DNA from: Jaapia argillacea MUCL 33604 | Lineage: Eukaryota; Basidiomycota; Agaricomycetes; Jaapiales; Jaapiaceae | DNA length: 64,000 nucleotides | Assembly (NCBI GenBank): GCA_000697665.1 | Contig: KL197709.1 | Coordinates: forward strand, 2,541,599-2,605,598 | Direction of reading: 5' to 3' | Shown: positions 8,401-62,600 of the stretch, piece after piece | Position numbering within the stretch: the stretch's first letter is position 1 | How the letters are laid out: every line of letters starts with the position of its first letter | Position numbers and translations under genes: made by a program | Notes under the pieces: generated by a model | Told to the model about the DNA's origin: nothing | Database searches by the model: none | The model's input: only the letters and a program-made list of their open reading frames with translations

Positions 8401-9924
8401 GCTGGGTGTTGCACTACTATTACCAAGGGGTCAGTGACTCTACATTAACTTTGTTCTTAACGCTCATGCCCTCTTAGACTCCATCATGGCAATGGTACTA
8501 TCCATACCATTTCGCTCCCTTCGCGGCCGACTTCGAAGCTCTCGATCAGTTCCAGGTCAATTTCGACATGGGCCAACCGTTCAAGCCGTTCGAACAGTTG
8601 ATGGGGGTATTCCCTGCTGCCAGGTACGACTAGGTCATCTCTTCTTCTAACTATTCAACGCTAAGTCTATTTCAGCCGAATGCATATTCCCCAGGCTTTC
8701 CAACATCTAATGGTTGATGAGGAGTCCCCTATCCTCGACTTCTACCCCTCGTCCTTCGAAGTCGATATGAATGGTAAACGCATGTTGTGGCAGGGTGTCG
8801 CGCTGCTCCCTTTCATTGAACCAAAGCGACTCCTGGAGGCGATGGCTCCGCATTATTCGAAACTCACTGAAGATGAGGTACGACGAAACACATGGGGTCA
8901 TAATGCCCTGTACGTCTCGGAAGATCATCCCCTGTATGCGTTCCTCGAAAAGTTGTATGGGAAACGCAAAAATCAGGAGGTAAGTCCGAGCAGTGTCGAA
9001 TATCCAATTATTCTCAATTTCGGTGTTCAGCCTGCTCCTCTTCCCGTCAAGCAAAGCAAAGCAATGAACGGGAGTGTTCTCCCAAACCCGGATTGCCTTC
9101 CTGGTGCTACCTTCTATTCTCCCTTGAGTGATGTGGATCTCCCCGACATCCCCAATGACAGGAGTTTATCTGCAATATATCTGTTTCCAAAGCAGCTCAC
9201 GCCCCATCGATCTGTCCTTCTCCCTGGAGTACGTCGCCCGCCTCGTATCCTTTCCTCTATGGACCTGGAGAATGCACGTCGCGGCGGCAATAATCGTGGT
9301 CGAGGACGAGGGGGAGGAGACTTTGGACGTAGCGGCAATTTCGATCAGCGAGGTGGTGGACGTGGAGGACCACCGTCTTATCGAGATTCGCAATCGCATC
9401 ATAATTCCCACTCATACAATGACGATCGCGGAGGAGGATACAGTCGACCTCCAAATCCTCCCTATCAGCAACAGCCAAACTCTTACAGACAACCACCACC
9501 CTACTCGTCCCACCAACAACCATCGTATCCATCTTACCAGTCAAGGCCTCCGCCACCAGTGGCGCAGCAGTACGGCGCCTATGGCTATGGGACCACGGCC
9601 CCGCCACCACAGCAGAACTTTGGCGGGATGGATCCCTACAGTGCCCCTTCACGCGGAGGAGGGTCGTATAATTCCTCCTATGGTCGAGGTGGTGGAGGTG
9701 GCGGTGGGGGATATGGGAACCATACGAGTAGGGGAGGGTATGGCGGGTATGGCGGAAATGATAGTGGATATGGTGGCTATGGTGGAAACACGTCTTACCA
9801 AAACAACAGTCATGGCGGTAGTGGGGGTAGAGGCGGAGGTGGATATGGACAAGGGTATCAAGGTGGCGGTAGAGGTGGTGGGTCTTACAATGCACCCAGA
9901 GGGAGGGGTCGAGGCGGTTACTGA
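5457..9924 (+). CDS. RAT1: Nuclear 5'-3' exoribonuclease Rat1/Xrn2
   Basis: Nuclear exoribonuclease that trims rRNA and snoRNA and drives torpedo termination of RNA polymerase II. The first coding exon is only the ATG (5457-5459); exon 2 (5522-5570) then reads [16 protein letters not shown], the universal Xrn start. A 30-nt exon (5830-5859) carries [10 protein letters not shown]. Later blocks are [18 protein letters not shown], the acidic-pocket segment with VPGEGEHKI and YGLDADLIM across junctions, a zinc knuckle [14 protein letters not shown] near 6760, and [21 protein letters not shown] Ser/Thr/Pro-rich insert spans about 7300-8180. The XRN C-terminal part follows ([33 protein letters not shown]). 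The C-terminus is RGG- and Pro/Tyr-rich and ends RGRGGY. The zinc knuckle and the nuclear-type C-terminus separate it from cytoplasmic Xrn1. Confidence 0.95.
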
Positions 9925-10209: not shown

Positions 10210-11715
10210 CTAGTATCCATGGAATTGATTCTCTGGGAGTGTGGACCAGGTCTGAGACGGTACAGAGGTGATGTAAAGGGCATACGTCTTCTCCTTCTCT
10301 TTTCGCTTCCTTCTCGGCCGCTTCCTGTGCTCCTTCCCCGCCCCATCAATATGTGTGTCCGTCGAGGACAACATTGCAGCGGGTTTGCTAGACTGATTCG
10401 CTAACAAGAGGGGGTCAGAAGACTCTCCCGGTTGCTTGTCAGGCTTTTTGCGACTACTCCCAAGAGCCGCTTCCTGTCTTGACGTACCATCATCCCGAAG
10501 ACGTGCGGTTGCAGAGGAACGAGGGTCAATTGCATTCTGCAAAAGTCCGCTATCGTTCGGTGGCGGGTGATAAACTGGATATTCCTCGTAATGTTTGGGC
10601 GCCAACTGATCCCGAGCCGGCCCATGACCGGGGGTTTCTCCGGATAAAACGACGCCATTCCGTTCGCCCAGTTCCGAAAGTGGGATTTGTGGAAGGTCTG
10701 TTGGGGTGTTCAACCGAGAGGAGCCCGGCGATAGACCATCACCACCTTCGGTAAGGTCGGCGCCAGGGACGGTTAAGTAGCGACCTTTTCGGCGATTGAA
10801 GACAGCGGTTGCCCACCGCACATAGCGGGGTGGCTGTGAGGAGCTGACGCTACCCACACCCAAGTCTGACGCGCTGTGCGTGTGCTGTGAGATCTTGCTC
10901 AAGCGTCGAGTCTCTCTTGCTGATTGGATCTCAGGAGGGGAGTCACCTTGCTTGCTTTGTCTCCCTGAGCTGAGACGGTCAATGGCGACGCGGGCGCGTT
11001 CTCCAATAACCTGATCGTTCGTTAGCATGAAAATACAGAATAGGTTGCCAGTTAACGGTACCATCGCAGACTTCGAAAATCCATTGAAGGCAGAGCATTG
11101 GCCCTCCATCCAATTACAGATCCCTAATTGCTTTGTTTCTGCCAATGTAGCCTCCATGGCAATAATGTCCCTACTGACATCGCCCATCTCCTTTGTTAAT
11201 CTCTCCAGCTCAGCGTTTCGATCCGATGAATCATGGTAATCCTTGGCCCGAGACGCATCCACTTTGGAGGCAAGGGTCTGTTTGATACGATTCAAATCCT
11301 CCAGGGGGCCATCAACTGAAGCCTGGATAGATTTCACAATATCACTGAGAGGCTTGAGGTCCTGGGCCAGTTTCGAAAAGGTCGTCGAGTAGCCCGAGAG
11401 GATCGTGGCGAAAGGAGCCACGCAGTTCTATTCAGAAATCTGGATGGATGAGAATTGAAGCTCCACATTCATCGAAACATTCACTCTTACCGCGAATTCA
11501 GTGCTTTCCCCCAGGCCCCATAACATGAGTGCCGTGGACATAACATGATGCTGGTGGCTCAAATTCTCGAATCTGCAATCCCCAAATTGCCATACGTCCC
11601 AAGGTAAGCATACACCTAGCATAACTGGGCAACTTGTAACTCACGATTGAAGGATCGACTCATATGCGGTGAGTATGTGCTGCAAAGGGAGAGATTTCGT
11701 TTGTTGATTCGCCAT
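10210..11715 (-). CDS. Helical coiled-coil protein with a C-terminal tail shared with the gene at 15411-18117
   Basis: I do not recognise a named family. Three exons (11715-11645, 11572-11491, 11427-10210) sum to 1371 nt and give a continuous 456-residue protein. Residues 1 to about 150 are predicted largely helical (LPLQHILTAYESIL, ENLSHQHHVMSTALMLWGLG, then GPLEDLNRIKQTLASK and LERLTKEMGDVSRD). This could be a BAR-like membrane-bending fold, which is only a guess from pattern. The middle is Ser/Pro-rich and disordered. The last 35 residues (RRKRKEKEKTYALYITSV) match the end of the protein encoded at 15411-18117 (KVKEKEKAYTLYITSV), and the DNA is similar too. It is head to head with the gene at 11875, with 159 bp between starts. 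Another start further upstream is possible. Confidence 0.65.
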
Positions 11716-11874
11716 GAACTTGCGAAGTAGGAGGAGTGTGAAGTTAACTGGATTTGCGGATGTCGGGTGATGTGTACGTTAGTTCCCGGCACAGCACTAG
11801 TACTGACGACGCCCGTGAAGGTTTCCTTGTACGTTGTCAAGTTGACGTTCGCGACTTAGCTCGCGTTCACGACC

Positions 11875-14800
11875 ATGGAACTGTCGTCAGAGACGACTCC
11901 ATCAGCTCTTCCAGTTGCGCTCCCGGCACCATCGACCACCACAAGCCAAGCGTCCCCCCTCGAGGACGTATCACCGGCTTCTCGATCTGAACTACACCAG
12001 ACCGAGGTGATGCCCTCTGTTCCTGAGTCCGTAATGTATACCTCTAGCCGTGGGGGGGATGGAGGAGTAGTGTATCAGCTGTATAAGTGAGCATTTTACT
12101 GTAAGACAATGTTACGTGACCGATCGATGTTGTGTAGAGCTGTGACTGCAAGGTATGCCTCCGCTCGTCCGTAGTGGCGCTTGGTGTCTAACGTGGAATG
12201 ATATTTTAGCTACCAGACTAGTCGAGGATTCGTGAATGGTACCACATGGATCTCAGCGGGATCTACTGGAACCTTGCCTGTGGACGCTAAGCCTGCACCC
12301 CCCGTAACGACTTTCATCTTGATATTGGGAGTAGTTGCTCAGCGTTACTCTTCCCCCGTAGGATTTTGCTGCTTCGTGGCACAGAAACCCGACCGACGTC
12401 GGAACGACCAGAGATCAGTACGAATTTCCCCTTCCCCCTCGTCGTTACACTCCCTCATCCTCGTGCCCACCTAGGCAACAAAATGGGGAGAAATCCAGCC
12501 CCGAGGACCGCTCACAGGGAGAAAACCGCGACGCACTTCGGGCTGATCGTCGTCCCAAGGAGAAGGGTACCGTCAGTTTCAGATCGGGACCTCCCAGTTA
12601 CATCAGCGGAGGGGCTAATTCTGGGTATTCAGATAGTACTGTTGATCCTAGGCCCAGCGATAGGTGGAACAGCCCTTACCGACCCTACATTCCTTCCTCA
12701 GTCTCCTCCACCGTCCCGAGCCATACGCCTTTCATCCCACCCCCCTCCACGCCTTACATCCCACCCTCCTCCACGCCTTACATCCCACCCTCCTCCACGC
12801 CTTACATCCTTCCCTCCTCCACGCCTTACATCCTTCCCTCCTCCACGCCTTACATCCCGCCCTCCTCCACGCCTTACATCCCGCCCTACTCCACGCCTTA
12901 CATTCCATCCCCCACCCCGTCTTACATGCCGCCCCCCACCACACCTTTCATCCCGCCAACCGCCATATATCTCGTCCCTAACCCCTCTACACCTTCTACC
13001 CCAAGTACACCCTTTTCCCCACCAACTGTTTCTGGGAGAGGGGCTTATAACTCGATGCCCCCTAGTGAGCCCTATCCCAGGTGGGCCACGATGGTTCCCA
13101 GTCCGCCTCCTGTTGGTGGCAGTTATGGAGCAGCAGGAATTCCTAGTTCTTTACCGAGTAGACACATCCATGGGGGTCCGGGAGGTCCAATTCCTGACGG
13201 GGGGATATATGGATATGCCAGACGGGTTCCTAACCCACTGCCTGGCGGAGGTATCTACGCAGGAGCGAGGTGGTCATCCGACCCTGTTGCGGGCGGAGGA
13301 GGATTCCAAAGAGGGGCGGCAAGCACTCCTGGCCCGTTCCTTGCTAGCAGTGTTCAACAGGAACAGATAGTGCCAGGGTCTACCACTTATACGACGACTG
13401 TGGGGGCGGATGGCAGGGTTGTTTACCACCGTTTTAGGCAAGTAGTGCCGCCCTTTGGGCTGGAGAGTGATTAACTAATAGTAGATGGGTATAGAGCCAT
13501 TGCCGCTAGGTATGCCCTCCAACCGATGTAGGCGAATCATGCTCTTACCTTGTTTGGTGTTCAATATCAGATATGAGACCCCTCAAGGCATCGTGGAAGG
13601 CGTACAATTGGTCCCTTTTCCTGTTCAGATACCTCCCCCTGATGCCATACCTGCTACCTCTGTGAGCATTCCTTTGATCGGTAAACGATCGTCATTTGAG
13701 AGTTGACGACCTTCCGTAGACTCTTGGTGCACCTTGGAACGGGGTATCTACGGATCGCGACACAACCAGTCATCGGTATACTGCTTCCTCATCTTCAAAC
13801 TATCGAGTCGCCGGCTAATTCCCTCGCGTCCAGGCAACGTGAAGAAAAAGGTCACCGACGAGAGAAGAAAGCATCCTCCCGAAGGTCCCACCAATGGGAG
13901 AGAGACCGACCCGACCAACATGGGACACCCAGCGGACCTGTACTCAACTCTGATCGTGGTAGTCCCTTTTCTCCCTGCCATCAATCTTCCCTATTGACGA
14001 CCCTTTCAGGACAGCCTGATTACCCTCGCGGTCAATTTCCTCCTACCCCACGTGACGAGTCTCGTATCCACGCGAGCACCTTACCTGCTTTCAATCGACC
14101 TTCTCAGCAACCGGTCGGAAGCCTCATAGAACCGGAATGTTTCAAGAGGCCTCCAAATGCGACTCACCCATATCCACCCTTCGATATTACGAGAGTCTTG
14201 GAGTTGGATGACCTTTTGGACGAAGTTATGCCCAATTTCCCCTTCAAGCTCTCGACGCACGACGTGTACAATGAAGATTGGACCAGGCTGATGCTGGTGT
14301 GTTCACGGTTCTCATGCCATTTTTGGGTCATGGAGCTGATCGTGACGGTTAGGATCTGTGGATGGTGTGGTCTCGGGAGCTTCAGAAACCAGAAGTCTCT
14401 GGTACACAGGTTCCCAGGAGAAGCTCCGTTGTCGCTGACATCATCGACTCCTGGAATGCCAAGTTCTTTGCTCCTCGCGGTCTCCAAGTTCTTCTCTATA
14501 AAGGCCGCGAATGTCGCTCAGGCCCGAATTCGGGAACGCTTAACTCTCACCTCCCCGGTCTTGACGTGAACGGGGCCGACCTCTCTGCCTCTGAATCCGA
14601 CTCTTCTGATTCAGACTCCGAGAATGAGGGTAATGAATATCGTGAGCAGGGTGGCGTCTCTGAACGACGGGTAGATGCCCGGCGGGCTGACATGGAGAAC
14701 GAGATCATTCGTGACAACAAGGGGAAGGAGAGGCACGTGTGGAAGATGAACGAAGGGAAAAGGCCTGCTCATCAGCCTTCTGACTCCGATTCTGATGAAG

Positions 14801-15054
14801 ATAGTTATCCGTATCCCATGCGCGGAGGCATATTTGGACAGCCTATCAATCCCCCAGTAACTCAGCACATGCATATGAATCCCACGGCGCCCCAGCATGT
14901 GCCTCAATCCATGAATCCTTCGCTGACCCAACATATGCCACCAATGGTGTTTCCTCCCTCTGGGGGATCTGCAAAATCTGGAGTTACAGTTCTTAACCTC
15001 CAATACCCCAATGAAAGCCCCTTCTACAACCCCTATTATTTCCCGCCACCTTGA
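11875..15054 (+). CDS. Internally duplicated, repeat-rich basidiomycete protein (two module copies in one frame)
   Basis: Unnamed family; paralogue of the gene at 15411-18117. Exons 11875-12086, 12138-12152, 12210-12303, 12362-12417, 12475-13437, 13495-13509, 13571-13661, 13720-13775, 13834-14296 and 14353-15054 total 2667 nt, giving 888 residues without a stop. The N-terminal module has GGDGGVVYQLYK, AVTA, SYQTSRGFVNG and DFAASWHRNP. Then come TPYIPPSS repeats, degraded GGGIYGG repeats, and a second module copy (YTTTVGADGRVVYHRFR, AIAA, RYETPQGIVEG). The conserved C-terminal domain follows (HPYPPFDITRVLELDDLLDE, LSTHDVYNEDW, DIIDSWNAKFFAPRGLQVLL). An acidic SDSSDSDSE stretch and a Pro-rich tail end it. 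One intron (13438-13494) has a GC donor. The single frame across both halves argues for one fused gene, though two genes cannot be excluded without RNA data. Confidence 0.7.
12724..12960 (+). repeat. 24-bp coding tandem repeat (TPYIPPSS)
   Basis: About seven near-identical 24-bp units (core tccacgccttacatccc) lie inside the long exon 12475-13437. In the exon's reading frame they encode TPYIPPSS with variants TPYILPSS and TPYIPPYS, decaying towards TPFIPPTA at the end. The repeat is open in all three forward frames, which explains the overlapping long reading frames there. Only the TPYIPPSS frame joins the flanking exons. Confidence 0.85.
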
Positions 15055-15410
15055 GCGACGAGGATTGCTACTCCTGACCTGCGTTTGGTGCGGGATTCCG
15101 GTCATGTAGAAGTATTAGTTGGTGGTTGTTGGTAGGCACGTATATAGTAGGTAGATACGTTCCACCAAATTCTGAGACAATCTTGTGGACGCCTCGCCCC
15201 ATGTTATCTCCAGTGGCCTTCTGTTCGTCGAAGAATACACTCTACATCTTCCGACTACTTACAGTATCTAACCGTACAGAGTTTCGCGGTCATTCATTTC
15301 GTGTACAATTTGGTGTACAAACGCGTGAGGAACATAAGAGGAGCTCGTGAATACTTGCGATAGCGATGTGGCCTTCTCCGAATGAACCAAGGTGAAAGAG
15401 AATGAGCTAT
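15055..15410. other. Convergent 3' region between the two paralogues
   Basis: The two related genes end tail to tail here. I see no reading frame of substance. It presumably contains both 3' UTRs. Confidence 0.5.
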
Positions 15411-18117
15411 CTACCAACCAGTCGTTTCGTACCCTCCAGCAGCCATCGGTGACGCCCTGGGTTCGACGGAGGTGATGTAGAGGGTATATGCTTTCTCCTT
15501 CTCCTTGACCTTCCTCCTCAACTTCTTCTCCTTCTCCTTTCTCTTCTGCTCCTCTTTCTTGTCCTTCCTCCGTCGCTTTGCATCACGGATCTCGGCCTGC
15601 CTGGGATCCGCCTGCCGCCCGTATACACCGCCCTGCTCACCGTACCCATAGCCCTCGTCCTCAGAATCGGAATTAGAGGAGTCCGATTCCGAGGTAGAGA
15701 TGTCGGCTGGGTTCACGTCAAACCCTGGGAGATGATGGTCGACGGTTCCGGCATTTGCACCCGAGCGACGTTCGTGGCCTTTGTACAGAACGACTTCAAC
15801 ACCACGAGGAGTAAAGAACATAGCGTTCCAAGTATCGACGATCTCAGCGGCGACGGCGGTCCTCTTGGGGACCTGCTGAGTGCGAGCGACATCAGGGATA
15901 GGAAGTCGTCGAGACCATGCCATCGACAGGTCCTGGGTACCAGGGTCAGCGTCATGGCTTCACGTGTGATAAGGAAACTGTAAGCTCACCTGCATCAATC
16001 TCATCCAATCTTCATTATACACGTCATGCGTTGAAAGCGTGATCGGGAACCTGGGCATAACACCGTCCAAGAACTCATCCAAATCGAGGACCCTCATGAT
16101 ATCGAACGGCGTGTAAGGGTGGGCCATGTTTGGAGGGCGTCCGAAACCTTCAGGTACCCCAAGCGCTCCTTCTTGTTGGGAAGGAGGCTGATCATATCCA
16201 GACACAGAACCTGCACGCATGTTCGGAGACCTAGGGTACCCACCAGGCGCAACAGGGGGACCACGAGAGGGAGGACGAATGGGTTGACCTTCGAGGACAT
16301 GACCGGGAGGATAAACGCCTGGGCGGGATGAAATCGACATATCGTGTGCAGGGTAGGGGGATGATGGGCGATCGGGGTTGCGGAAAGCCTCGCTGGGCCT
16401 GGCATCAGACGTAGAGTATCCTGTATTGTGGTATCCACCATGAAGGACGGCTTCTGGCCTAGAAGGGGAGGGAGGGTACGTGCCTGGATAAGGGGCAGTC
16501 ACAGATGAGCTTTGAGGAGCGGCGCCATAAACTCCAGCGCCTCCACCAGCAGTTCCATACATACTACCCCTCCTATCTTGCTGCGGAGGCGGTGCGGAGT
16601 GTGTCATATTCCTCGTCCTCTCGGCGGAGTAGACAGTGCTACTAGAACGATGCTGCTCGAAACTCATATCTTCGAACCTCCTCTCCAAGTCAGCGCCCAC
16701 ACCACCCGCATATACCCCTGGGGCATAGCCAGGGATGGGACTTGCGTTCCCACGAGCCTGTCCACCATAGATTCCACCACCGGGGACAGGACTTGGGGCC
16801 CTTCCCGCTCCACCATAAATCCCACCTCCAGGGACGGGGCTTGCGCTCCTTGCAACACCCCCGTAGATCCCTCCCCCAGGAACAGGACTAGGCACCCTGC
16901 CCGATCCTCCATAGATCCCTCCACCCGGAACGGGACTAGGCGCCCTTCCCGCTCCTCCGTAGATACCACCACCAGGAACGGGACTAGGTGCCCTTCCAGC
17001 TCCTCCATAGATCCCTCCTCCAGGAACAGGGCTCGGAGCCCTTCCCGCTCCTCCGTAGATTCCACCACCAGGGACAGGACTGGGAGCTCTTATCCCTCCA
17101 CCATATCCCCCGCCTGCATATCCAGGCACAGGGCTAGCCCTTCCTCCAATGATATTGGGAGCAGCCGGGCTGAAGCTAACGCTGTTCTTCCTCCTGTTTC
17201 GACTGGCAGCGTCTCTATCGCGTGCTTCTCGGAGTTCACGCTGTTCACGATCCTCGGCTCTCTCACGATCACGACGATCTTTCTCCCATTGATGGACTCG
17301 TTTGGAAGCTTCCTTCTCTTCTCGTTTACGTCGCTTGTCTTCTTCGCGTTGCCTAGCCGGAGGGATAAGGATGAGCGAGGTAGATGGAATGGGTGGGATG
17401 GAGGAGACGTACCAGTCTCGAACTTTCTCACTCTCGGATGGGTTCCTGTTCCACGAAGCAGCGAAATCCTAACATGAGAAAGGCGATCGATGCTCAGCTA
17501 CAGACGATTTCTCGATCGAGGCGATGAGACTTACAGAGGTAGCAGGCGTGGCACCAGCAGGGAGAACTTGAGTAGCTTCAGCAGGGATCCATTGGATACC
17601 ATTCACGATGCCCTGAGGAGTCTGATAGCTGATGAGGACGTAGATCATACCGATATAAGTCATCAATCGATCCCCCAAACCATAAGATAACATACCTAGC
17701 AGCGACCGCTCTACATAAACGCATCATCGATCAATCACTCAACACCTCAAAAGATCACAAACTAACAACTCACTTGAAGGGATGATAAACGACCCTCCCA
17801 TCCGTGCCAACGCTGGTAGTATAAGTGATCGTCCCAGGCGTGATCTGTTGTTGGACTTGGGCATGTTGGGGTTGAGGACTAGGGGGCGGCGCGTAGGCTA
17901 CGCCGACCTGAGGAGGTCCGGGCTGAGGCGCATATTGGACTGGAGGTGGTTGAGGCGAAGCGTATCCAGGCTGAGGAGCATACTGAACTTGGGGTTGAGC
18001 GTAACCCACAGGGGCGGCCTGTGCAGGCAAGTATGCGGGTTGAGGGTTTGGTGAATATTGGGTTATGGGGACTACATTTGGAGCAGCGTTCGGTGAGTAT
18101 CCATATATGCCGGCCAT
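15411..18117 (-). CDS. Repeat-rich basidiomycete protein, full-length member of the local paralogue family
   Basis: Unnamed family. Exons 18117-17774, 17710-17696, 17628-17535, 17468-17413, 17352-15990 and 15932-15411 total 2394 nt, giving 797 residues. The N-terminus is Pro/Gln/Tyr-rich (AQPQVQYAPQPGYASPQ). The module TYTTSVGTDGRVVYHPFK, AVAA, SYQTPQGIVNGIQWIP, DFAASWNRNP follows, then a charged helix (QREEDKRRKREEKEASKR, VHQWEKDRRDRERAEDREQR). Next are seven PGGGIYGG repeats and a disordered stretch. The conserved domain is HPYTPFDIMRVLDLDEFLDG, LSTHDVYNEDWMRLMQ, EIVDTWNAMFFTPRGVEVVL. The tail is lysine-rich and ends KEKAYTLYITSV plus about 15 residues. Intron positions and phases match both modules of the gene at 11875-15054. 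The Gly/Pro/Tyr repeats suggest a structural or condensate-type protein, which is inference only. Confidence 0.78.
16755..17105 (-). repeat. 48-bp coding tandem repeat (APSPVPGGGIYGGAGR)
   Basis: Seven units of about 48 bp encode APSPVPGGGIYGGAGR with small changes (SGRV, VARS, QARGN). They lie in frame inside the exon 17352-15990. Units differ mainly at third positions, so selection or gene conversion has kept the protein sequence. The related gene at 11875-15054 keeps only degraded units (PDGGIYGYARRVPNPLPGGG). Confidence 0.9.
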
Positions 18118-18745: not shown

Positions 18746-19742
18746 TCACGAAAACCTCCACCAAAGGAAAATGATGATAATGAAGAACACCGCTCCCAGA
18801 GGTGCGTATTGCCGAATCATGGCTTGGAGGTTGATGTTCCTCGCTGCTCTACGGTACTTTTCGGACTCCGAGCGAAGGGAAGTTGACAGGTGAGACATCC
18901 CTGTTCAAGACGGTAAATGGTGAGGAAAGAGGGCAGAACATCGAGAGGGGAATAGAATGGGCGAGAGGGCGAGGACGAGCGGGAATGAGTATTGAAAGGA
19001 TGGGAAGACAGACTTACGGTCTAACGAATCCCCTCTCCACAAAAGCTCCTCCATATTCTTCGTCATAATTCTCGTCACATCCTGCAACTCATCATTCAAC
19101 TTGTCAAGATTCGAACTCCCACTAGAGTTCGCAGCTCGTGTATCTTGATACAGTCGAGCCGTTTTTGACATGAATGTGTCTATTCCCACCAGAATCCCAT
19201 AACCGTCAACAATAGGACATGAGGAGGAAGAGGGGAAACAACCGTACCGAATCCTACAAACGCATAAGGCTTTCGTACCGTCTCCACTTTCGGACCATAC
19301 GACAGCGCAAATTCTTTCGATAACTCGTCCAGATACGAAAAGGCCAGTTTTCTAGGGTAGGACTTGTCTGCTATCGTCATATACACCACATTGTCCACAA
19401 TGAGATAGCTACGAGTCACGGAACAGCAAGAAGTCAGCTTTCCGGGTAAGTGGGAGGGGAGAAACGAGAGACACGTACTGCAGTGTATATGCGCCGCTCT
19501 CTATCGAACACCGTGGCTCAGAGTTGGGTGTTATCCATCGAAAGACAAGTTTAGCTTGTTGTTTATGTTCTTGGAGAGTCTGTTCCGTCTATTGACAAGG
19601 AATAACATCCCCTGTCAGCACATTGTTCTCACTCAGAAATACCAGTGAACCGGACGAATATTTTGCTCACCTGCTCGTCATCAACGCTGGCAGCCAGCGG
19701 AAGACAGTCAGATCCCCGTACGACCATCGTTGAGCGAACCAT
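18746..19742 (-). CDS. SEC22: ER-Golgi R-SNARE Sec22
   Basis: Vesicle SNARE for ER-Golgi traffic. It starts at 19742 with MVRSTMVVRGSDCLPLAASVDDEQ, the Sec22 longin-domain start. Further exons give LIVDNVVYMTIADKSYPRKL, SYLDELSKEFALSYG and RKPYAFVGF. The SNARE helix is NLDKLNDELQDVTRIMTKNM then EELLWRGDSLDRMS, with the central arginine of R-SNAREs present. The last exon reads SEKYRRAARNINLQ and a tail anchor APLGAVFFIIIIFLWWRF with a single residue beyond it. Several short introns interrupt it. It diverges from MPO1. Confidence 0.93.
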
Positions 19743-29510: not shown

Positions 29511-31166
29511 ATGCAGGCTCGTAGAGGTCTAGCAGCCGCTCTCAACGGTAGCGGCAGGTTCAAATACAAGGTAAATAATCCAAGATGTTGTCTATCCACA
29601 AACCCTGATACTGTTTTCTTTCCCCCGAAGTCCCCAGAATCAGTCGTAGATTTCCTCGTCGTAGGAGGCGGTGAGTTACACTGCCGTTACACGCACACGA
29701 AAGCTAACGCTTTCTGCCAGGTGTTGTCGGCCTTGCCGTTGCACAGCGTTTATCCGAGCGATTCCCAAACAAGTCGACTTTTCTCGTCGAACGCCATTCA
29801 CGAGCGGGCGAGGAGACGAGGTACGTCCTCTCATCACAAGTTCGAGCTCAGACGCTGATACATAGACACGAATAGTTCTCGCAATTCCGAGGTTATCCAT
29901 GCCGGTCCGTTGTACACATATATAAAGGCAGCTGGTGTTTATCACCTTGACTCTATAGGCCTATACTACCCTCCCGACTCTCTCAAAACCCGCCTTTGTC
30001 TTCGCGGCCGCCAGATGATCTACGACCGTTGTCAAAAGTACAACATCCCCCATCGCAAAACCGGTAAACTAGTAGTCGCCGAGGACCATCAACGATCCTA
30101 CATCGAATCCCTCCACGCCAAAGCCCTCAAACTATCATGGCCTCCCCATTCTCCCTCACACAACCCTACCCATAACGTTCTACCCACAGAACTCATCAGC
30201 GGAGACAAAGTACACGAAATGGAACCGAATCTATCAAAGAATATCGTGGCGGCGTTGTGGAGTCCAGAAACTGGTATTGTTGATTCGCATGGGCTTATGG
30301 AGAGTCTGGAGAAGGATATCATGGAATCAGAAGGGGGCGCTCTGGTATACTCAACCAAAGTAGTCCGAGTCGACCCGTTCATTCCTTCCTCATCCTCCAA
30401 CCTGGAAGGAGGAAACCAAGGATGGGTCGTCCAAACTGTTACTGGTGACCCATCGGCTGCGTCAGAGGGCGAGAGCGACGTAATGTTAGCTCGAACGTTG
30501 ATCAACGCATCAGGTCTAGCCAGTCCTCTCATCCTCAACTCCCTACTCCCTCCAGAATCTCGCATCTCAATGTTCTACGGCCGTGGTTCTTACGCCTCAT
30601 ACAAAGGACCAGGTATCTCCGGCATCTCACACCTCATCTATCCATGCCCAGATACAGCCTCTGACAGGAAAAGCAAAGGCAACAGCGTAAATTTCCAATC
30701 ACTCGGCACACATCTCACACTCGACCTTCAAGGCAAACTTCGTTTCGGTCCCGACTTGGAGTGGATCTTCCCTCGCGAAGGGAAAGAGGAAGATGAATTG
30801 GAGATGGATTTTTGGCAAGGGCATTTGGTGCCGAGCGAGGAAAGGTTGAGGGAGATGTACGAAGCTGTGAAGAGTTATTTGCCGGGTGTTGAGTTTGATG
30901 GGTTCCAACCAGATTATTGTGGGGTTAGACCGAAACTTGTGGGTCCAGGTGGTGGGTTCCAGGATTTTGTTATTAGGGTTGATTATCCCGAGGACTTTGT
31001 GGATGGGAAGGGTTCAAAGGATGGTAGGCGAAGCGGTAAGGGTATGGGAGGACAAATGATCTCATTACTTGGGATTGAGAGTCCGGGTTTAACTTCCAGT
31101 TTGGGGATTGCAGAATGCGTGGTTGAGGATGTGTTGGATAAAACGAGTGCCGATGAAACCTCATGA
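29511..31166 (+). CDS. L2HGDH: L-2-hydroxyglutarate dehydrogenase, mitochondrial (FAD-dependent)
   Basis: Flavoprotein that oxidises L-2-hydroxyglutarate to 2-oxoglutarate, a metabolite-repair step. The start MQARRGLAAALNGSGRFKYK is Arg/Ala-rich and looks like a mitochondrial presequence. The FAD loop is split by an intron: DFLVVGG then GVVGLAVAQRLSERFP. Next are SSRNSEVIHAG, LYYPPDSLKTRLCLRGRQM, HRKTGKLVVAE, SPETGIVDSHGLMESLEKDI and INASGLASPLI. The C-terminal FAD-contact region is YCGVRPKL, GGFQDFVIRVD and LLGIESPGLTSSLGIAECV. Exon junctions are near 29572, 29670, 29820 and 29893-29957. Confidence 0.93.
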
Positions 31167-34700: not shown

Positions 34701-36956
34701 TCAATCAGCGTACAACACATGCTTATCAGTCTTCTCGATCCACTCCCTCAGCTCATCGTCCCTCCCCAGCCCAACAAACTCGTTACTCAAGCTGTCCCGA
34801 TACTTGAGTTTCAACACATTGCCTCCCAGACGTCCATGTACCTTATCCATCAACTGGGCATATGTCACCCGAGGATGAACACGAATAGCGATAAGATCGT
34901 CCGACACTCTGTCAAAGATTTTGATTTTGACAAAGGCGGTTTGGGGGTTGGTAGAGGAAATCGGCGGTGTATTGAGGTTGGCCGCGTTGGAATGGGAACG
35001 AGAACGAGTAGAAGGAGCTTGGGACGAGCGAAGGGATGTAGGGGAGGGAAGAGACGCTCCAACGGCCTCCTGCCTCTTGGATCCACTTCCCGATGAAAAG
35101 TTTGAGTGACTGCTCGTACGGTGATGATCGGCATCTCGAGTGGCCATGTTTCGGAGTTGAGAAGTCTGAGATGCTTGATAGCTTTGTTGATGAGGAAGGG
35201 GTGAATTCTCCCGGGAGTGATAAGCAGAATCTGTGCGAGTAACCGGGGATTGCTTGGAGGATGAGGTCGAGTCTGATCGACGATCGCGCGAGTTATGGAG
35301 ATAATCCGGCCCAGGTGATGGACGAGGGGGCGATGGATCATATGCGTAAGGGTGACGCTCGGTGTGGTCGTTGTTGCGATCATGCCCTTGTCCTTGCACT
35401 TTTTGCGTATCCTCCTCATAGACAGATCCGTCGCTCCCATCATCGTCCTCGTCCGCAAGCTTCATCCCGTTTAACTGGGCCTCAACACTATAATCATCCT
35501 CGATTTCGGCAACAGGATCGAGATGTTCCTCGCGTCCGTGCCCAGCTCTCAACGTCTTCATCTCTTCCACCCGGGGATCGATGCTGGTCTCCACGTCGCC
35601 AGGTTTGATACTGAGAAACTCGGCAACAACTCGATGTTCCAAGATATACTGGGCGTTGGTCTGCAAGAGTGAGCACAGAGAATGGAGATACGCGTCCAAC
35701 TCGTGACGCCTCTGTGCTGTGATGGCATCGTCCACCTGGTCAACCGGCCCAGGCATATAGGGTAAGATGCGGGGATGAGGAGGTTCACGACCAGCCTCGC
35801 GAGGGAAAGTCTTCAATAATTCGACTTGGAAGTCGAAAAAGTCGTTGTAGGCTCGGAAGAGTACGAGTTGTTTAGCGGAAGGGAGAGACGACAAGGAAGT
35901 GGATGGATCGCAAGGCTGGTAGATCGCATTAATGCGGAACCAGTACTCTTCCATCTCGTGGTGGAAAGATACAACGTCGGCGGTGAGGAGGATGCCTGGT
36001 GGTAACAGGGAAGGGGTGGGTGGTCTGTCGGGAACATTTGGCTCCGGTTCGTAGACGACAGGCGCTGGTTGTGGCGGAAGTTGAACAGGGGGTTGTTCGA
36101 GCTGTGGTGAGGTTGGCGAGTACATCGAGGTGTAAGGACTGTTGGGGACTTGTCCGCGAGCTGAATTGTCTTCGATTACGCCGAGAGCAATGCTGTTGGC
36201 TTTATAGTTGAGCATTTGCTTCTTCCACTCTTCCACCCTGGGCAGCTCTCCTCGGTCGATGATGGCCCCGACATCCTCGATGGGAAGATTCGTGGTGGGA
36301 TCACGAACTTCCACGAAGGAGACGGGGATTAGGCCTGGTCTGCCCAGCTTCCCGATAGGTTTGGCAACGAACCATTCCCGGTTTGACTGGGCAACTACGG
36401 AGATTGAGTCGCCCGCTTTGGCATCCAGCTCGTCTGCACGTTCGGCAACAAAATCGTGCACAACAACGGCATAGAAGACCTTGGGTTTGGGCTGTCTCTG
36501 CCCTGAGGTTGCAAGGGGGATCATGGGACCGGGAGACATTCGGCCACTTTGCGGTGAAATGGGCGGTTGGGCGCTGTTCAAGTTGTAAAACGAAACGTGT
36601 TGTTCAGAGATCAGAATCGGTTGGAACGCGGTAGCCACGACTCACTCCGTGTTTGATTTGTTGAATTCTTCAAACATCGATTTGGGAACCAAACCACGAG
36701 CACCTGTCACGGGGTTGTGTGCTTGAAACCAAGCGCTTTTCTGCTCGTCTTTAATGACATAGAAGAAATCGCCTGTTTGGAATGGTAGCTCCTGAGGGGC
36801 CTGTGGTCTGTAGGATCCGGTAGCGCGAATGACCTTCTTTGGCGGGATAAGGGTCGAGGGGGGTTTCGAAAGTGCGGGTAAGGGGATCGGGGTTGATATA
36901 TTATGGTGGTGATCCTTTGTGTGATTACCCTTGAGGGAGTTTCTGAGGGCCTTCAT
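34701..36956 (-). CDS. BEM1: Polarity scaffold Bem1/Scd2 (SH3-SH3-PX-PB1)
   Basis: Cytoplasmic scaffold that links Cdc42, its GEF Cdc24 and PAK kinase at sites of polarised growth. Exon 1 (36956 to about 36653) encodes SH3-1: VIRATGSYRPQAPQELPFQTGDFFYVI, in part, then GARGLVPKSMFEEF. After one intron, exon 2 carries SH3-2 (FYAVVVHDFVAERADELDAK, WFVAKPIGKLGRPGLIP), a Pro-rich linker, and a PX domain (ADVVSFHHEMEEYWFRINAI, FRAYNDFFDFQVELL, RILPYMPGPVDQVDD). A long Ser-rich region precedes the PB1 domain at the C-terminus (FVKIKIFDRVSDDLIAIRV to DKHVLYAD). The order and number of domains match Bem1. Confidence 0.95.
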
Positions 36957-45265: not shown

Positions 45266-47455
45266 CTATTCCTTGGAACGAAAGAGTGTCTTTCGGAACC
45301 GCTCGAGTCTACCACTCCAGAACTTCATCCCAAACCGGTCTTCCATTCTGAGCCAGGCCTCGCGGATGAGTGCTACATCATTACCACTCGCTTTGGCGTA
45401 TGCAAGCATGATCCACCAGACCAATCGACCATTGGGCTTCTTGTACTCGCCCGGAAGGTCCAAGAAGCTGTCGAAGACAGCTTCGAGGTTCGAGACGTTC
45501 CATGGACTCCGTGGGTCTGTCCGATGGGCCAACAAGGGGCCGGTGAAGGGATTCTCTGGTATAGGCTTCGAAGAGGGCTGAGTCGGGTTTCGTGCGTGAC
45601 GTGCAAAGCCCAGGAATAGAGACCGAAAGGCTGGAAGAGTGGGTTGATATGTGAGAGGCTCATCCGTTACCGCATCCTTCCTCTGTTCAGTAGCCTCAGT
45701 GATCTGAGCAGTGAGCATTTCTTGGAACGTCTCCAGTGCACGCATGAGGTCGCCTTGGTATGCATAAGCCTGGATGAGGATATGATAGGTGACCCCGTCG
45801 GGTACAACGTCTTCAGATATGCCAATATATTCCGTTTCGTCCAGATGTTTAACTGCTTTATCAATATCCGGATCTGGTTCGGCAGTGGCGCGAACGAGGT
45901 TGTATCGTAGTGCCCGATAGATCATGGTAGCAGTTTCGAGTCGTCCATTGTATCCATACGCCCAAATGCAGGCATTCAGAGCATCGATGCGTAACGGGAA
46001 TCCTCGCTCTCTCATACGAACGAGGATGGTCCGTACACCAGGCAAGTCTCGTGTCCGAGTGTAGTATCGTAGGAGGACAAGGTGAGTGATTTCGTTAGGT
46101 TCTAGTCCTGAAGAGTTGAATAATGAAGTGGCGCTGCGGAGGAGGTCGGGATTAAGTGCCCGAGCAGCGATGTTCAGAAGTGTGGTATGGGTGATAATAT
46201 CGGGTTGCACTCGATGTACGGTATGTTGTTCCGGCGGGGGTGTAGGGGGTACTTCAAGCGAGGCGTATGCGGACCCAGGCATACTCCCTTCGACCATATC
46301 ATCAAAAATCTTCAACGAGTTCTGATAATCCTGAGGTCTGGTCTTCTTCCATCCCTTGCCCGCACAATCAATAAGCGCATTCCATTCCATTCTGTGAATC
46401 TCTCCACCGGTTTTTCGGATGGTGGTTAGGACGGAATGGAGGCGGAGGAATAGGGAACGTGTGCGTGGTTTGGTGGATGCTATACGTCGAGCGAGGTTGT
46501 GGAGGTGATAATGGTAGGTGGGTTTGGGAACACTTGGTCCAGGGGAGAGGGAAAGTATGTAGTCGTATATGGCCCATGCTGTGTCGAGTGTTGGAGCGCA
46601 GGTCATGTCTTTGAGAAGACGTAGATGGAATACGTCGTCTGTGTGTGTGAGGGTATCGGTTGTGTCGAAATCGGTATCGTAGATGAGAGATTCGAGAATA
46701 TCGGGAGTGGAAAGTGAGGATGGAGGAGTGCCTTGTAGGGATGGAATTGGTTCGGGGGACGGGAGAGGCTTTGTTGCGAGGGATACTTCGCAACTCGCGT
46801 CCTCTTCGGCAGCGTCTTGAAGAACGCCTTCGTTTACGCCGGCAGGTTGCGAAATCGCCGAAGGGGACAGAATGTCCTCGTCGGTGACCTGATCGACCGG
46901 TGTAGGAGCTCCGTAAGACATTTCCTCCCACTCGGACGAGTATTCCGACAGAGTGGAGGAAGGAGATTTGTCTGAGGGATGAAAGCCGTCTGGAACGCGA
47001 CGTTCGACTCTTTTCAGAGGACGACGCAGGAAGAAGGAATCTCCCAATTGGTGCTCCCCAACTGCACCCTCTTCTCGTCTTCGTAGGGGAGCGCGTGTCT
47101 GGAAGTTGACATGCGCAGGGAGGTCTCGCGTAAAAGTACTGCTCATACCCCCCGATACTGGGATGACGCTCGTCGTGTCGCCAGTGATATCTCCCTCGGG
47201 ATATCCGCCGTCTGCCAAGCTCAGAACGACACCATTTTTCTCTTGACTTTGACCTCTCCTCTCCTCCCATTCTCCACCCCCAACTTCCCTCCTCACCTTC
47301 CTCGTCGAACAAGAAATCAACCGCCTCATCCGCGTAGTACTCGCCTCGAACGAACCACATCTCTTCAACGACGATACGCCCAGCACCGAATCGTAAACCC
47401 CGAGATGAAGATGAGATCGGAGGATGAGGGGGAGAGAGGACGACGCTCTCAGCAT
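45266..47455 (-). CDS. Pentatricopeptide repeat protein, probably mitochondrial
   Basis: RNA-binding PPR protein, probably acting on mitochondrial transcripts. A single long open frame starts at the ATG at 47455 (MLRASSSLPLILRSHLHLG), an amphipathic Arg/Ser/Leu start that suits a mitochondrial presequence. The N-terminal third is disordered. PPR-like helix pairs run from about residue 300 on: DIITHTTLLNIAARALNPDL, NEITHLVLLRYYTRTRDLPG, RIDALNACIWAYGYNGRLET and GVTYHILIQAYAYQGDLMRA. It ends in a charged helix (RMEDRFGMKFWSGRLERF). It is a single exon, unlike most neighbours. I cannot assign the RNA target. Confidence 0.85.
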   Translation of the reverse strand: MLRASSSLPLILRSHLHLGVYDSVLGVSSLKRCGSFEASTTRMRRLISCSTRKVRREVGGGEWEERRGQSQEKNGVVLSLADGGYPEGDITGDTTSVIPVSGGMSSTFTRDLPAHVNFQTRAPLRRREEGAVGEHQLGDSFFLRRPLKRVERRVPDGFHPSDKSPSSTLSEYSSEWEEMSYGAPTPVDQVTDEDILSPSAISQPAGVNEGVLQDAAEEDASCEVSLATKPLPSPEPIPSLQGTPPSSLSTPDILESLIYDTDFDTTDTLTHTDDVFHLRLLKDMTCAPTLDTAWAIYDYILSLSPGPSVPKPTYHYHLHNLARRIASTKPRTRSLFLRLHSVLTTIRKTGGEIHRMEWNALIDCAGKGWKKTRPQDYQNSLKIFDDMVEGSMPGSAYASLEVPPTPPPEQHTVHRVQPDIITHTTLLNIAARALNPDLLRSATSLFNSSGLEPNEITHLVLLRYYTRTRDLPGVRTILVRMRERGFPLRIDALNACIWAYGYNGRLETATMIYRALRYNLVRATAEPDPDIDKAVKHLDETEYIGISEDVVPDGVTYHILIQAYAYQGDLMRALETFQEMLTAQITEATEQRKDAVTDEPLTYQPTLPAFRSLFLGFARHARNPTQPSSKPIPENPFTGPLLAHRTDPRSPWNVSNLEAVFDSFLDLPGEYKKPNGRLVWWIMLAYAKASGNDVALIREAWLRMEDRFGMKFWSGRLERFRKTLFRSKE

Positions 47456-47902
47456 CAATGGGACGTGTAGTCATCCTAATACGCAACAGAAAATCGGAAT
47501 TCAGTTCGCGTGCAATTTGGGAGGGGAGGGAGAACGTACCGCCAGGTGCACAAATACACCTTCGTGAGAGGACGAACTGGACGCTTATATGTACGCGTTC
47601 CAGCTCTGTTTGACAGAAGTTGGAGGTTAGGACACCCTTGCCACCTCGATTGATGGTGCCGGTACTTTGAATTTTTTGGATGAGGTCGGATCACGACGTC
47701 TCTCACGGGGTGTGATTGGCTACACATCTTTCAACACAAACCCTCACAACTATTGAGAGGTCGATTTTCCAAGGCGCGTAAGTGTGTGTAATGCATAGCA
47801 TGGGGGCAGTACAACAGTAAGGAGCATAAATGCGTAGGAGGTAAGGAATGGTACGGCAACAGTGACAAGAGCACGGAATCAAGACGGAAATGACGACCAC
47901 AC
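47456..47902. other. Intergenic region between PPR gene and uL3
   Basis: It lies between the PPR start and the uL3 stop. No gene is supported; the PPR promoter and the uL3 3' UTR are expected here. Confidence 0.5.
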
Positions 47903-59695: not shown

Positions 59696-62600
59696 ATGGA
59701 AGTCGTTGATAGTGTCCGCGCCTGTATTGAAAATTGGGAAAGAGGTGGAGAATCGGAATGGTATGTATCTTTGACTTGACTTTACAGCTTCAAAATTGAC
59801 GCGATGTCCCAATTGTCAGCCGCAACACACTCATTCCACCCCACTGCAGTCCAACAGTCCCTGATTGTGTCGACGTTCTCTCTACTGTTTACCATACGCT
59901 TCTGGTCTCGACATTGCTGACCTGGTCTCCGAAGCACTCCCTTTCGTCAAATGCGCTCATTGCGTTTGTTCACTCTGTCCTTGATGCTCTGCCGTCTTCG
60001 TCTGCTCCTTCATCCAAAAGTCTCCGTGTCGCGGCATTCGGAGAGCTTCTTGTCGACACCATCTGGTCGGTCGAGGCTGCTATTGACGAAATCTTGGGCG
60101 AGGCCAAGGCAGCTATCACCAGCAATGAGCCCGCACCCGATCATGCTGCACTGTCGAAGACGAAACAGAATGCTGAGAAGGACAAGGAAACACTGTCTCA
60201 GATTGTCAAACACTTTCTGGTATGTCAGTCCCCTATTCCCTTGGTCCATTGACCCTCATTCATAGTAGTCGAGCGGGATCCTCGACCCAGGTGTATGCAG
60301 AGAACGACTCGACGCCGCATTACTCGCAAGCGTTGGCCTCGTTTCCGACAAATCTTCGTTTGACAAGAAGGAAATCAGGGCAAGAACCGGTCTCTTGTGC
60401 GTGTTCATACTGGTAGTTCGTTCCTCGGGGCGTGCCGGTTGATTGGCGCCACATTCAGTTACAAGCAGAACAAGTTCAATCTCTTGCGCGAGCAATCAGA
60501 GGGATACAGCAAACTCACGACTGAGCTCACCAGTAGCCTGGGTCCGCCTCACTCTACTGTGACTGGTTACCCAACAGAATCAACAGCTGCGATTGAAGCT
60601 CGTGCACGTCCGGTTTGGGAGAGGGTCGTCAGCCTCATCGGCTACTTTGACTTGGACCCGAACCGAGCTCTCGATATCATCCTTGACGTCTTCTCTGTTC
60701 ATATGGGCCCTCATTACAGCTTCTTCCTCGCGCTACTTTCATTCTCCCCGTGGGCAGCACAGTCTGGGGAGGGTTCGGAGCAGCAGGATAGTGCTGGTAT
60801 GATGGTGGACGAGGAGCCGAATAGTTATCGCGGGAAGTCGCTGGATGATATTCTGCTGATGGCTGAGGTTCGGTCGAATGGAGGGAAGCAGCCTCCACGG
60901 CGTATTGGGAGCAAACCTAGGGTGTTGGCTCAGGTACTGGGGTTTAAATTCAAGTACTATCAGGTGAATTGCCGAAACGTTGTAGATTTGCATTTGGGAG
61001 ACATCTAACACGTACCTCTTCAGTCACCGGACGTTACAGAAAACCCTTCCAAGAACCTCTACTTGATGAGCGCACTATTGATACGAGAAGGCCTCATCAC
61101 TCTCGAAGATTTGTATTCCCATGTGCGTCGACACGCTGGTTTCGTTGCTGTCCATAGACCCTGAAGCGCCCCCTTTCAGATAACGCCCAGCGACACCGAT
61201 ATGGAGAAGCTCCACAAAGATTACCTGGCATCAGTTGACGCCAGAATTGCGGGAGCAAAACTGAGCCAGCTCGCTTTGGCCGCTCCCCTGGAGTCGAGTG
61301 CATCAACCACACCCTCTAAACCACGTGCCGCCACACCCGCCGACGCCAAACCGACTACTGCAGAGCCCAAGCCTCCACCGAACCAGAAGCTTTATCTTCT
61401 CATCGCTTTGCTTGCGATTGGGGCTCTACGGCCGGCCTTTGCCATCATCTCCCAATATCCCTGGATAGTTGACGCCCATACCGAATTGGCGGACCTGATC
61501 ATTCGAGCTCTGAAAGAGTCCGTCTCCTCCCTCTATACGACCACATATCCGCCCAAGGAGCAGAACGCGACCTTTACCCAGCCTCGTGCTCGTTATGGAT
61601 CCAGTGGTCTAGCTGCTCCACCTCCCAGAAAGCCGCACCTGACACTCTGGGCTCCGACACCTCCACCGACTGCCCTCGTCGAGTTTGTATACTTCTACCC
61701 GTATTGGACGGAGCGAGTCCCTATATGCTCCACGTTGGATGATATCGCGGACGTAGTTGAACCACTGATGCGCTTCGTTGGACTTCATGTATCACGCGAT
61801 CCTATGTTCATGACCAAATTATTGCGTCTAGGACGCAGCCATCTGGCCACGACGGTGATTACCATCTGTGTATCTTATTCTGTAAATATATTCGTTTCTT
61901 ACCACCTAGTCTTCATTAACAGATCGTTATTGACCCTGAAACCAAGAGACCTGTCGGCCAACCCGATCCTGAACACCCCATTCGCAAGCTCTGGTTCAAG
62001 ATTTTACGGTTATATATGCTACCAGCTCTTCCGCTGATTCGAGGGAATGCAGTTTGTGCAGTGGAGGTTTGGAATATCATTAGGCAGTACGAAACTACCC
62101 TCCGATGGCGACTATATGGCGAATGGAAGACAAGCACCTACAAGTCGCACCCCGAGTTGCGCGTTCGGGCAGTTCAGGCGGATCGCGAGTCGAAAGGTAT
62201 CTTGCGACGGCTGTCCCTCAATACTATCGACACACTTTCCAGCACTGTCGCCAAATTGGCCCATTCCAACCCATGCATATTCTTCGCCAACGCCGTCAAC
62301 CAGATCATGGCATACGACAATATGGCTGCGGTCGTCATCCAAGCCTTACGATACGTTACGAATATGGGATTCGATGTTCTCGTTTATGTTGTCCTTGACG
62401 CTTTCTCGAATCCCCACAAAGATCGAGTCAAGGATGATGGAGTGAACACATCTGACTGGCTTCAGAGTATGTTCATCATACTCCGCTCATTCTTGCACGC
62501 TGACGGTCAGTTTTTCAGGTCTAGCTTCTTTCACAGGGATGCTCTTCCGCCGCTATAGCGCCGACCTCACACCGCTACTCAAATATATCGTTCATCAACT

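Follow-up and report, generated by a model that had tools for sequence, protein, structure and literature searches.

Apparent in-frame exchange of C-terminal tails between a DUF4646 gene and a weakly Pil1-like neighbour in Jaapia argillacea, probably through one small inversion

Inversions are mostly discussed as rearrangements that break genes or change their expression. Gene fusions caused by structural variants have been described in yeast, where, according to the accessible text of the survey, 142 strains yielded 145 putative fusions in which both breakpoints of one variant lie in different genes (PMC10412453), and a further study mentions reciprocal fusions in humans in its accessible text (PMC11077074). 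Here we describe a locus of the basidiomycete Jaapia argillacea MUCL 33604 at which two neighbouring, unrelated genes appear to have traded their 3' ends. The locus lies in a stretch of 64,000 nucleotides (nt) of contig KL197709.1 (forward strand, positions 2,541,599 to 2,605,598), hereafter the window, and was compared with the genome of 43.7 Mb in 95 contigs. It comprises gene A and its paralogue B, both matching the Pfam family DUF4646, and gene C, whose body belongs to a coiled-coil, weakly Pil1-like family (Table 1). Sequence comparison gives good support to an exchange of tails between the two families. An in-frame exchange between C and A through one small inversion is the best explanation and probably the correct one.

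Genes A and B are arranged tail-to-tail on the plus and minus strands, respectively, and their codon alignment identifies them as paralogues. Their C-terminal domains share 65% identity over 163 codons, with 0.20 nonsynonymous (dN) and 1.15 synonymous (dS) substitutions per site; because dS is above 1, the duplication is not recent. Both proteins exceed the curated Pfam cut-off of DUF4646 (PF15496, 23.4 bits), B with 34.2 bits (expectation value E = 4.4e-8) and A with 32.0 bits (E = 2.2e-7). The original prediction, made from the letters of this stretch, had taken A and B for tail-to-tail paralogues, which the open gene models, the identity and the excess of dS over dN bear out. It recognised no named family, which the DUF4646 scores correct, and it called the family actively rearranging; local rearrangement as a theme is supported, and "actively" is too strong for a dS above 1.

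A second DUF4646 cluster lies in the same genome on contig C6 at about 89.7-97 kb (L021/L022), where three genes were modelled; by reading, a truncated fourth copy lies between two of them. In the alignment, A, B and the three modelled C6 genes have the HD-x(4)-DW and WN-x-x-FF-x-PR blocks in common. A Gly-rich hydrophobic stretch that the C6 genes have in mid-domain is missing from A and B, which show gaps of 24 and 23 columns there, respectively, and reach a best 19-residue hydropathy of 0.6 and 0.8, against 1.7-1.9 in the C6 genes. A and B also differ in carrying an N-terminal exon module, the search for which did not list C6. The C-terminus is lysine/glutamate-rich (K/E-rich) in B and in the C6 genes and finishes with a short hydrophobic strand, ...FRLVVVSIA in the three modelled C6 genes, whereas A ends GVTVLNLQYPNES.... 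The Gly-rich stretch and the K/E-rich C-terminus were taken from this genome's own DUF4646 members and may not define the family. Searches of PDB sequences with the N-terminal part of B and with its DUF4646 domain gave no useful match, and an AlphaFold model of the last DUF4646 exon built from two sequences was poor, with a predicted local distance difference test (pLDDT) score of 45.0.

The body of gene C is, judged by its matches within the genome, a member of a family other than DUF4646, coiled-coil in nature and with at least 17 further copies. A search with C (the version of 456 residues that includes a putative intron) found copies on contigs C23 (E = 4e-27), C4 (3e-19), C2 (3.5e-11) and others. 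A profile built from eight cores (C and seven from the same loci) recovered 16 genes in the fetched loci, counted from 17 rows at E = 1.3e-10 or better of which two are pieces of one gene, and the seventeenth family gene is L069 on C16. The single family of A, B and C, as which the locus had originally been read, is thus ruled out, C's body having multicopy paralogues of its own. Local expansions of this family occupy seven places on C23 at 57-117 kb (L047, L075, L049, L046, L048) and three on C54 at 99-105 kb (L050). In the unrooted family tree, in which some rows are fragments, C groups with L052, L048 and L049 (support 0.941), and this group joins L056 and two L051 genes (support 0.886).

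The profile of C's family matched PIL1/LSP1 chains in the PDB at E = 6e-4 to 1.5e-3, with three designed coiled coils and one viral coiled coil ranking above them. The Pfam Pil1 profile (PF13805) matched three of ten family members weakly (best E = 0.0019; two of ten in a second run), and gene C alone gave no match to it (curated cut-off 27 bits). In the genome the same profile gave five matches, and only that at C2:2126445 (L074) exceeds the cut-off. An AlphaFold model of C from a single sequence was mostly helical and poor (pLDDT 55.8), and Foldseek found no match to it at E = 0.001. Pil1 and Lsp1 have a BAR fold and are located in eisosomes at the plasma membrane. We speak of C's family as weakly Pil1-like, similar in kind, and do not assign it as a Pil1 member.

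The tail of C resembles that of B. The two K/E-rich tails, which end in the pattern YxLYITSV, are identical at 15 of 18 residues (dN 0.10, dS 1.74). A genome search with the B tail at E up to 10 listed only B and C, the latter at E = 7e-4. Among 3094 unique open reading frame (ORF) ends, C was the best match after B itself, with a score of 76 against 39 for the next, and none of 20000 shuffles reached 76. With the K/E run included, this confirms the original statement that the third gene shares only a tail with one of the other two. That statement saw one half of the tail sharing, between C and B; the reciprocal half, A carrying the tail of C's family, had been missed. As the search with the B tail listed only B and C, and the C6 genes have K/E-rich ends, A is the odd one out in the DUF4646 set.

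The tail of A, which ends AKSGVTVLNLQYPNESPFYNPYYFPPP, is of the type GVTVLNL. A [GDR]VT... tail lies near a stop codon in 11 of the 17 paralogues of C (for example TGVTVLILES, TGVTFLQLEY, TGVTVLVLESQHGEYPPSYS and KSGVTYPELAHPSDD), and eight of these 11 tails fit the strict form [GDR]VTxLxL. For most paralogues the frame of the tail was assigned by strand and distance; core and tail share a frame in L069 and in L053 copy 2. Genome searches with short tail peptides returned the query only, or in addition a match on contig C9 (E = 2.0) that was judged unrelated. Since these searches were uninformative, the tail was tested by scoring ORF ends and by searching for a codon pattern. The A tail reached 16.4 bits against a profile trained on ten paralogue tails without A. 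Of 2361 unique ORF ends, the only ones to score above it were nine of the ten tails used for training; the best other end reached 11.2 bits, and none of 200000 shuffles attained A's score. Gene C's own tail scored 2.8 bits on this profile. The six tree relatives of C include five with a [GDR]VT tail, the exception being L052, and a loss of this tail on C's side is therefore likely.

The codon pattern GVTVLxL had 17 matches genome-wide, compared with 26 for the reversed control. Three of them lie in loci with a coiled-coil core, among them L069, which stands outside the tail profile and has core and tail in one frame of 512 residues; one is A itself, and 13 are core-less, nine of these with a stop within 20 codons. 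These counts bear on convergence, by which both tails would be docking motifs gained separately in different families. Both tails are indeed short, and the core-less matches with a near stop include L058, with 97 open codons upstream, and L068, with 90, so that further genes may carry such an end. Convergence nevertheless appears very unlikely. Apart from training tails, no ORF end scores as high as the A tail, nor does any shuffle; GVTVLxL is not enriched over its control, and the near-stop matches with more than 200 open codons upstream number three, namely two family members and A. Moreover, the match between the B and C tails holds at the DNA level, with 80% identity over 54 nt.

At the nucleotide level, A matches positions 1-344 of the last exon of B (522 nt) and C matches positions 414-467, without overlap. 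The DUF4646 half of A and its new tail lie in one open frame (14353-15054), and so do the core of C and its new tail (10210-11427), apart from the putative intron of 51 nt. The left breakpoint would lie between 10316 and about 10777, the end of the family-like RYVRWATAVFNRRKGRY as judged by eye, and the right one within 14694-14979. The strand orientations are compatible with one inversion, which would account for both tails and both strands. The non-overlapping parts of the B exon in A and C are also what one exchange predicts, and they count against two independent captures of 3' ends, in which A would have taken its end from a lost Pil1-like copy and C from a lost DUF4646 copy in a formerly copy-richer locus. 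Captures of this kind would suit families that are both multicopy and clustered, a gene A that itself resembles a fusion of units, and junctions at which an inversion footprint was not found; they would nevertheless need two events with an exactly reciprocal result between neighbours, and we consider them unlikely. A false inversion in the contig, joining the wrong halves, is scarcely credible. A single assembly is the sole source, but no sizeable repeat lies at the junctions to mislead an assembler, and both junctions are in frame, which by our reasoning a random mis-join would achieve about once in nine. The alternatives thus rank in the order independent captures, convergence and mis-assembly.

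Several observations weigh against a tail exchange by one inversion. Regarding the tail of A, its short motif had been chosen by eye, and the profile came only afterwards. The tails of L048-, L050- and the first L051 gene fit [GDR]VTxLxL only loosely, and leave-one-out scores of the training tails range from 4.5 to 21.5 bits, so that the motif is loose at its edges. Six of the 17 paralogues (L052, L047, L046, L048+, L049+ and L050+ copy 1, which ends SEDVEYFEVDASGS) have no visible tail, including L052, a close relative of C; in some of the six the last exon was possibly missed. L074, which exceeds the Pil1 cut-off, likewise has no [GDR]VT tail; its sequence ends GGDDLPPYQDL. Regarding the tail of C, its match to B becomes ordinary when the K/E run is taken out (score 35, about fourth, reached by 11 of 20000 shuffles), and one C6 tail used as query scored 51 with B and 39 with C, the latter being background. 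At the junctions, the protein alignments of A with B and of C with B continue weakly into the K/E-rich part, where they overlap; the exact cut is therefore not fixed. Five short imperfect inverted pairs were found, none linking both breakpoint intervals; in the nearest pair (15 nt, 87%, 10559-10573/15036-15050) the right arm falls past the tail motif. Alignments between the two breakpoint regions scored no better than shuffles. Because no convincing breakpoint repeat was found and the evidence comes from this genome alone, the single inversion is inferred. Its direction and the working of both products are likewise putative.

The inversion favoured here would have started from a DUF4646 gene pair beside an unrelated Pil1-like gene, in the order A (minus strand) with the LYITSV tail, C (plus strand) with the GVTVL tail and B (minus strand). 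An inversion of about 3.9-4.7 kb would then have flipped the gene bodies of C and A, which stand head-to-head, along with the 159 bp that separate their start codons. The breakpoints would fall inside both last exons, in poorly conserved stretches, so that the 3' ends were traded in frame: A would have acquired the [GDR]VT tail typical of the Pil1-like family, and C the K/E-rich YxLYITSV tail from the DUF4646 gene. The products might be membrane-associated, scaffold-type proteins whose conserved C-terminal peptides dock partners, in which case the swap might have re-addressed both.

Table 1. Features of the locus, with positions in the window.
Feature	Position	Strand	Basis or remark
Gene A, DUF4646 paralogue; N-terminal exon module in two copies	11875-15054	+	Open model, PF15496 match, dN/dS
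Gene A exons	11875-12086, 12138-12152, 12210-12303, 12362-12417, 12475-13437, 13495-13509, 13571-13661, 13720-13775, 13834-14296, 14353-15054		
Gene B, DUF4646 paralogue	15411-18117	-	Open model, PF15496 match
Gene B exons	18117-17774, 17710-17696, 17628-17535, 17468-17413, 17352-15990, 15932-15411		
Gene C, coiled-coil, weakly Pil1-like	10210-11715	-	Gene model, own-genome paralogues, weak Pil1/Lsp1 similarity
Gene C exons (439 aa)	11715-11645, 11572-11491, 11427-11062, 11010-10210		
A tail, GVTVLNLQYPNES..., preceded by AKS	14980-15051	+	[GDR]VT type of C's paralogues
C tail, K/E-rich ...TYALYITSV	10262-10315	-	80% identical over 54 nt to B 15519-15466
B tail, K/E-rich ...AYTLYITSV	15466-15519	-	Similar K/E-rich end in C6 genes
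Part of A similar to B in nucleotide sequence (DUF4646 domain plus an acidic, Ser-rich stretch)	14131-14693	+	Matches B down to 15589
Putative inverted segment, outer limits	10316-14979		From tail and B-match limits
Gap between start codons of head-to-head genes C and A (159 bp)	11716-11874		Read from models; inside putative inverted segment
Module copy A1, exons 15, 94, 56 nt	12138-12417	+	Preceding part at end of exon 1
Module copy A2, exons 15, 91, 56 nt	13495-13775	+	First part is end of exon 5, GC-AG donor
Module copy B, exons 15, 94, 56 nt	17413-17710	-	Gene model
24-nt tandem repeat, 9.6 copies	12725-12954	+	Gene A exon 5
48-nt tandem repeat, 7.2 copies	16761-17105	-	Gene B exon 5

The sequence-derived models of A (10 exons of 212, 15, 94, 56, 963, 15, 91, 56, 463 and 702 nt; 888 residues) and B (6 exons of 344, 15, 94, 56, 1363 and 522 nt; 797 residues) have frames that are open from end to end. 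In C, a putative extra in-frame intron of 51 nt (11061-11011) gives the protein of 439 residues. Introns in all modelled genes measure 51-72 nt, and those of A and B are GT-AG with a single exception, the GC-AG intron 13438-13494 (+) leaving exon 5 of A after 13437, whose donor reads AG/GCAAGT where the sister modules have GT.

The N-terminal module of short exons occurs twice in A and once in B. The gene models uphold the exon sizes originally given for it (15, 94 and 56 nt in two copies, 15, 91 and 56 nt in the third) and their common phases: in each of the three copies the entry phase is 2 for the 15-nt and 94/91-nt exons and 0 for the 56-nt exon. Pairwise dN/dS values of the module are 0.32/1.39 for A1 and B, 0.32/1.14 for A2 and B and 0.56/2.20 for A1 and A2. 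Besides A and B, a genome search with the N-terminal part of B found one significant place, on contig C72 (E = 0.001), which brings the copies to at least four in the genome. The C72 module (L023, C72:9500-19400, minus strand from 4966) has exons of 128, 15 and 97 nt whose phases (2, 2 and 0) agree with those in A and B, is 44% identical to B over the module and is followed on the same strand by protein-kinase pieces (Pkinase E = 2.8e-10 for one). As it precedes kinase pieces, the module seems not to be tied to DUF4646. Exon 5 of A (12475-13437) joins a B-like middle with GGGIYGG-type repeats to the end of a B-like exon 1; A thus looks like a fusion of two B-like tandem units, in which exon 5 links the middle of unit 1 to the exon-1 end of unit 2. 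Because this exon is one open frame joining both units, the alternative of two distinct genes in place of A was dropped.

The locus is flanked on one side by an XRN-type exonuclease at 8665-9924 (+; XRN_M E = 5.7e-43) and on the other by a synaptobrevin-like protein at 18905-19351 (-; E = 4.1e-5, under the Pfam cut-off), presumably Sec22. Further along the window lie a flavin adenine dinucleotide (FAD)-dependent oxidoreductase at 29859-31166 (+), a protein with SH3, PX and weak PB1 domains at 34701-36641 (-), a PPR protein at 45266-47470 (-) and THO complex subunit 2 at 61165-62037 (+).

If the proposed inversion is correct, a single event would have given two unrelated genes each other's ends in frame, with both products kept, which would amount to a clean natural tail-swap experiment. 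Such a swap leads to a testable prediction on the role of two conserved, unexplained tails, and the result gives a first handle on DUF4646; literature searches for 'DUF4646' and 'PF15496' found no paper with the name or the accession in the library covered, and a search on both families themselves found none either. A more far-reaching version, in which the tails of the two families would be interchangeable address labels and one inversion would have made two functional chimeras, rewired a membrane-scaffold network and been kept by selection, is doubtful at present.

Among described systems, the locus can be set beside the gene fusions caused by structural variants in yeast, as far as the accessible text of that survey describes them (PMC10412453). 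The likeness lies in the breakpoints, those of one variant falling in two genes. Unlike the yeast fusions so described, both products here are kept as open frames of an apparently old event between two families, and both tails bear the recognisable character of the partner family.

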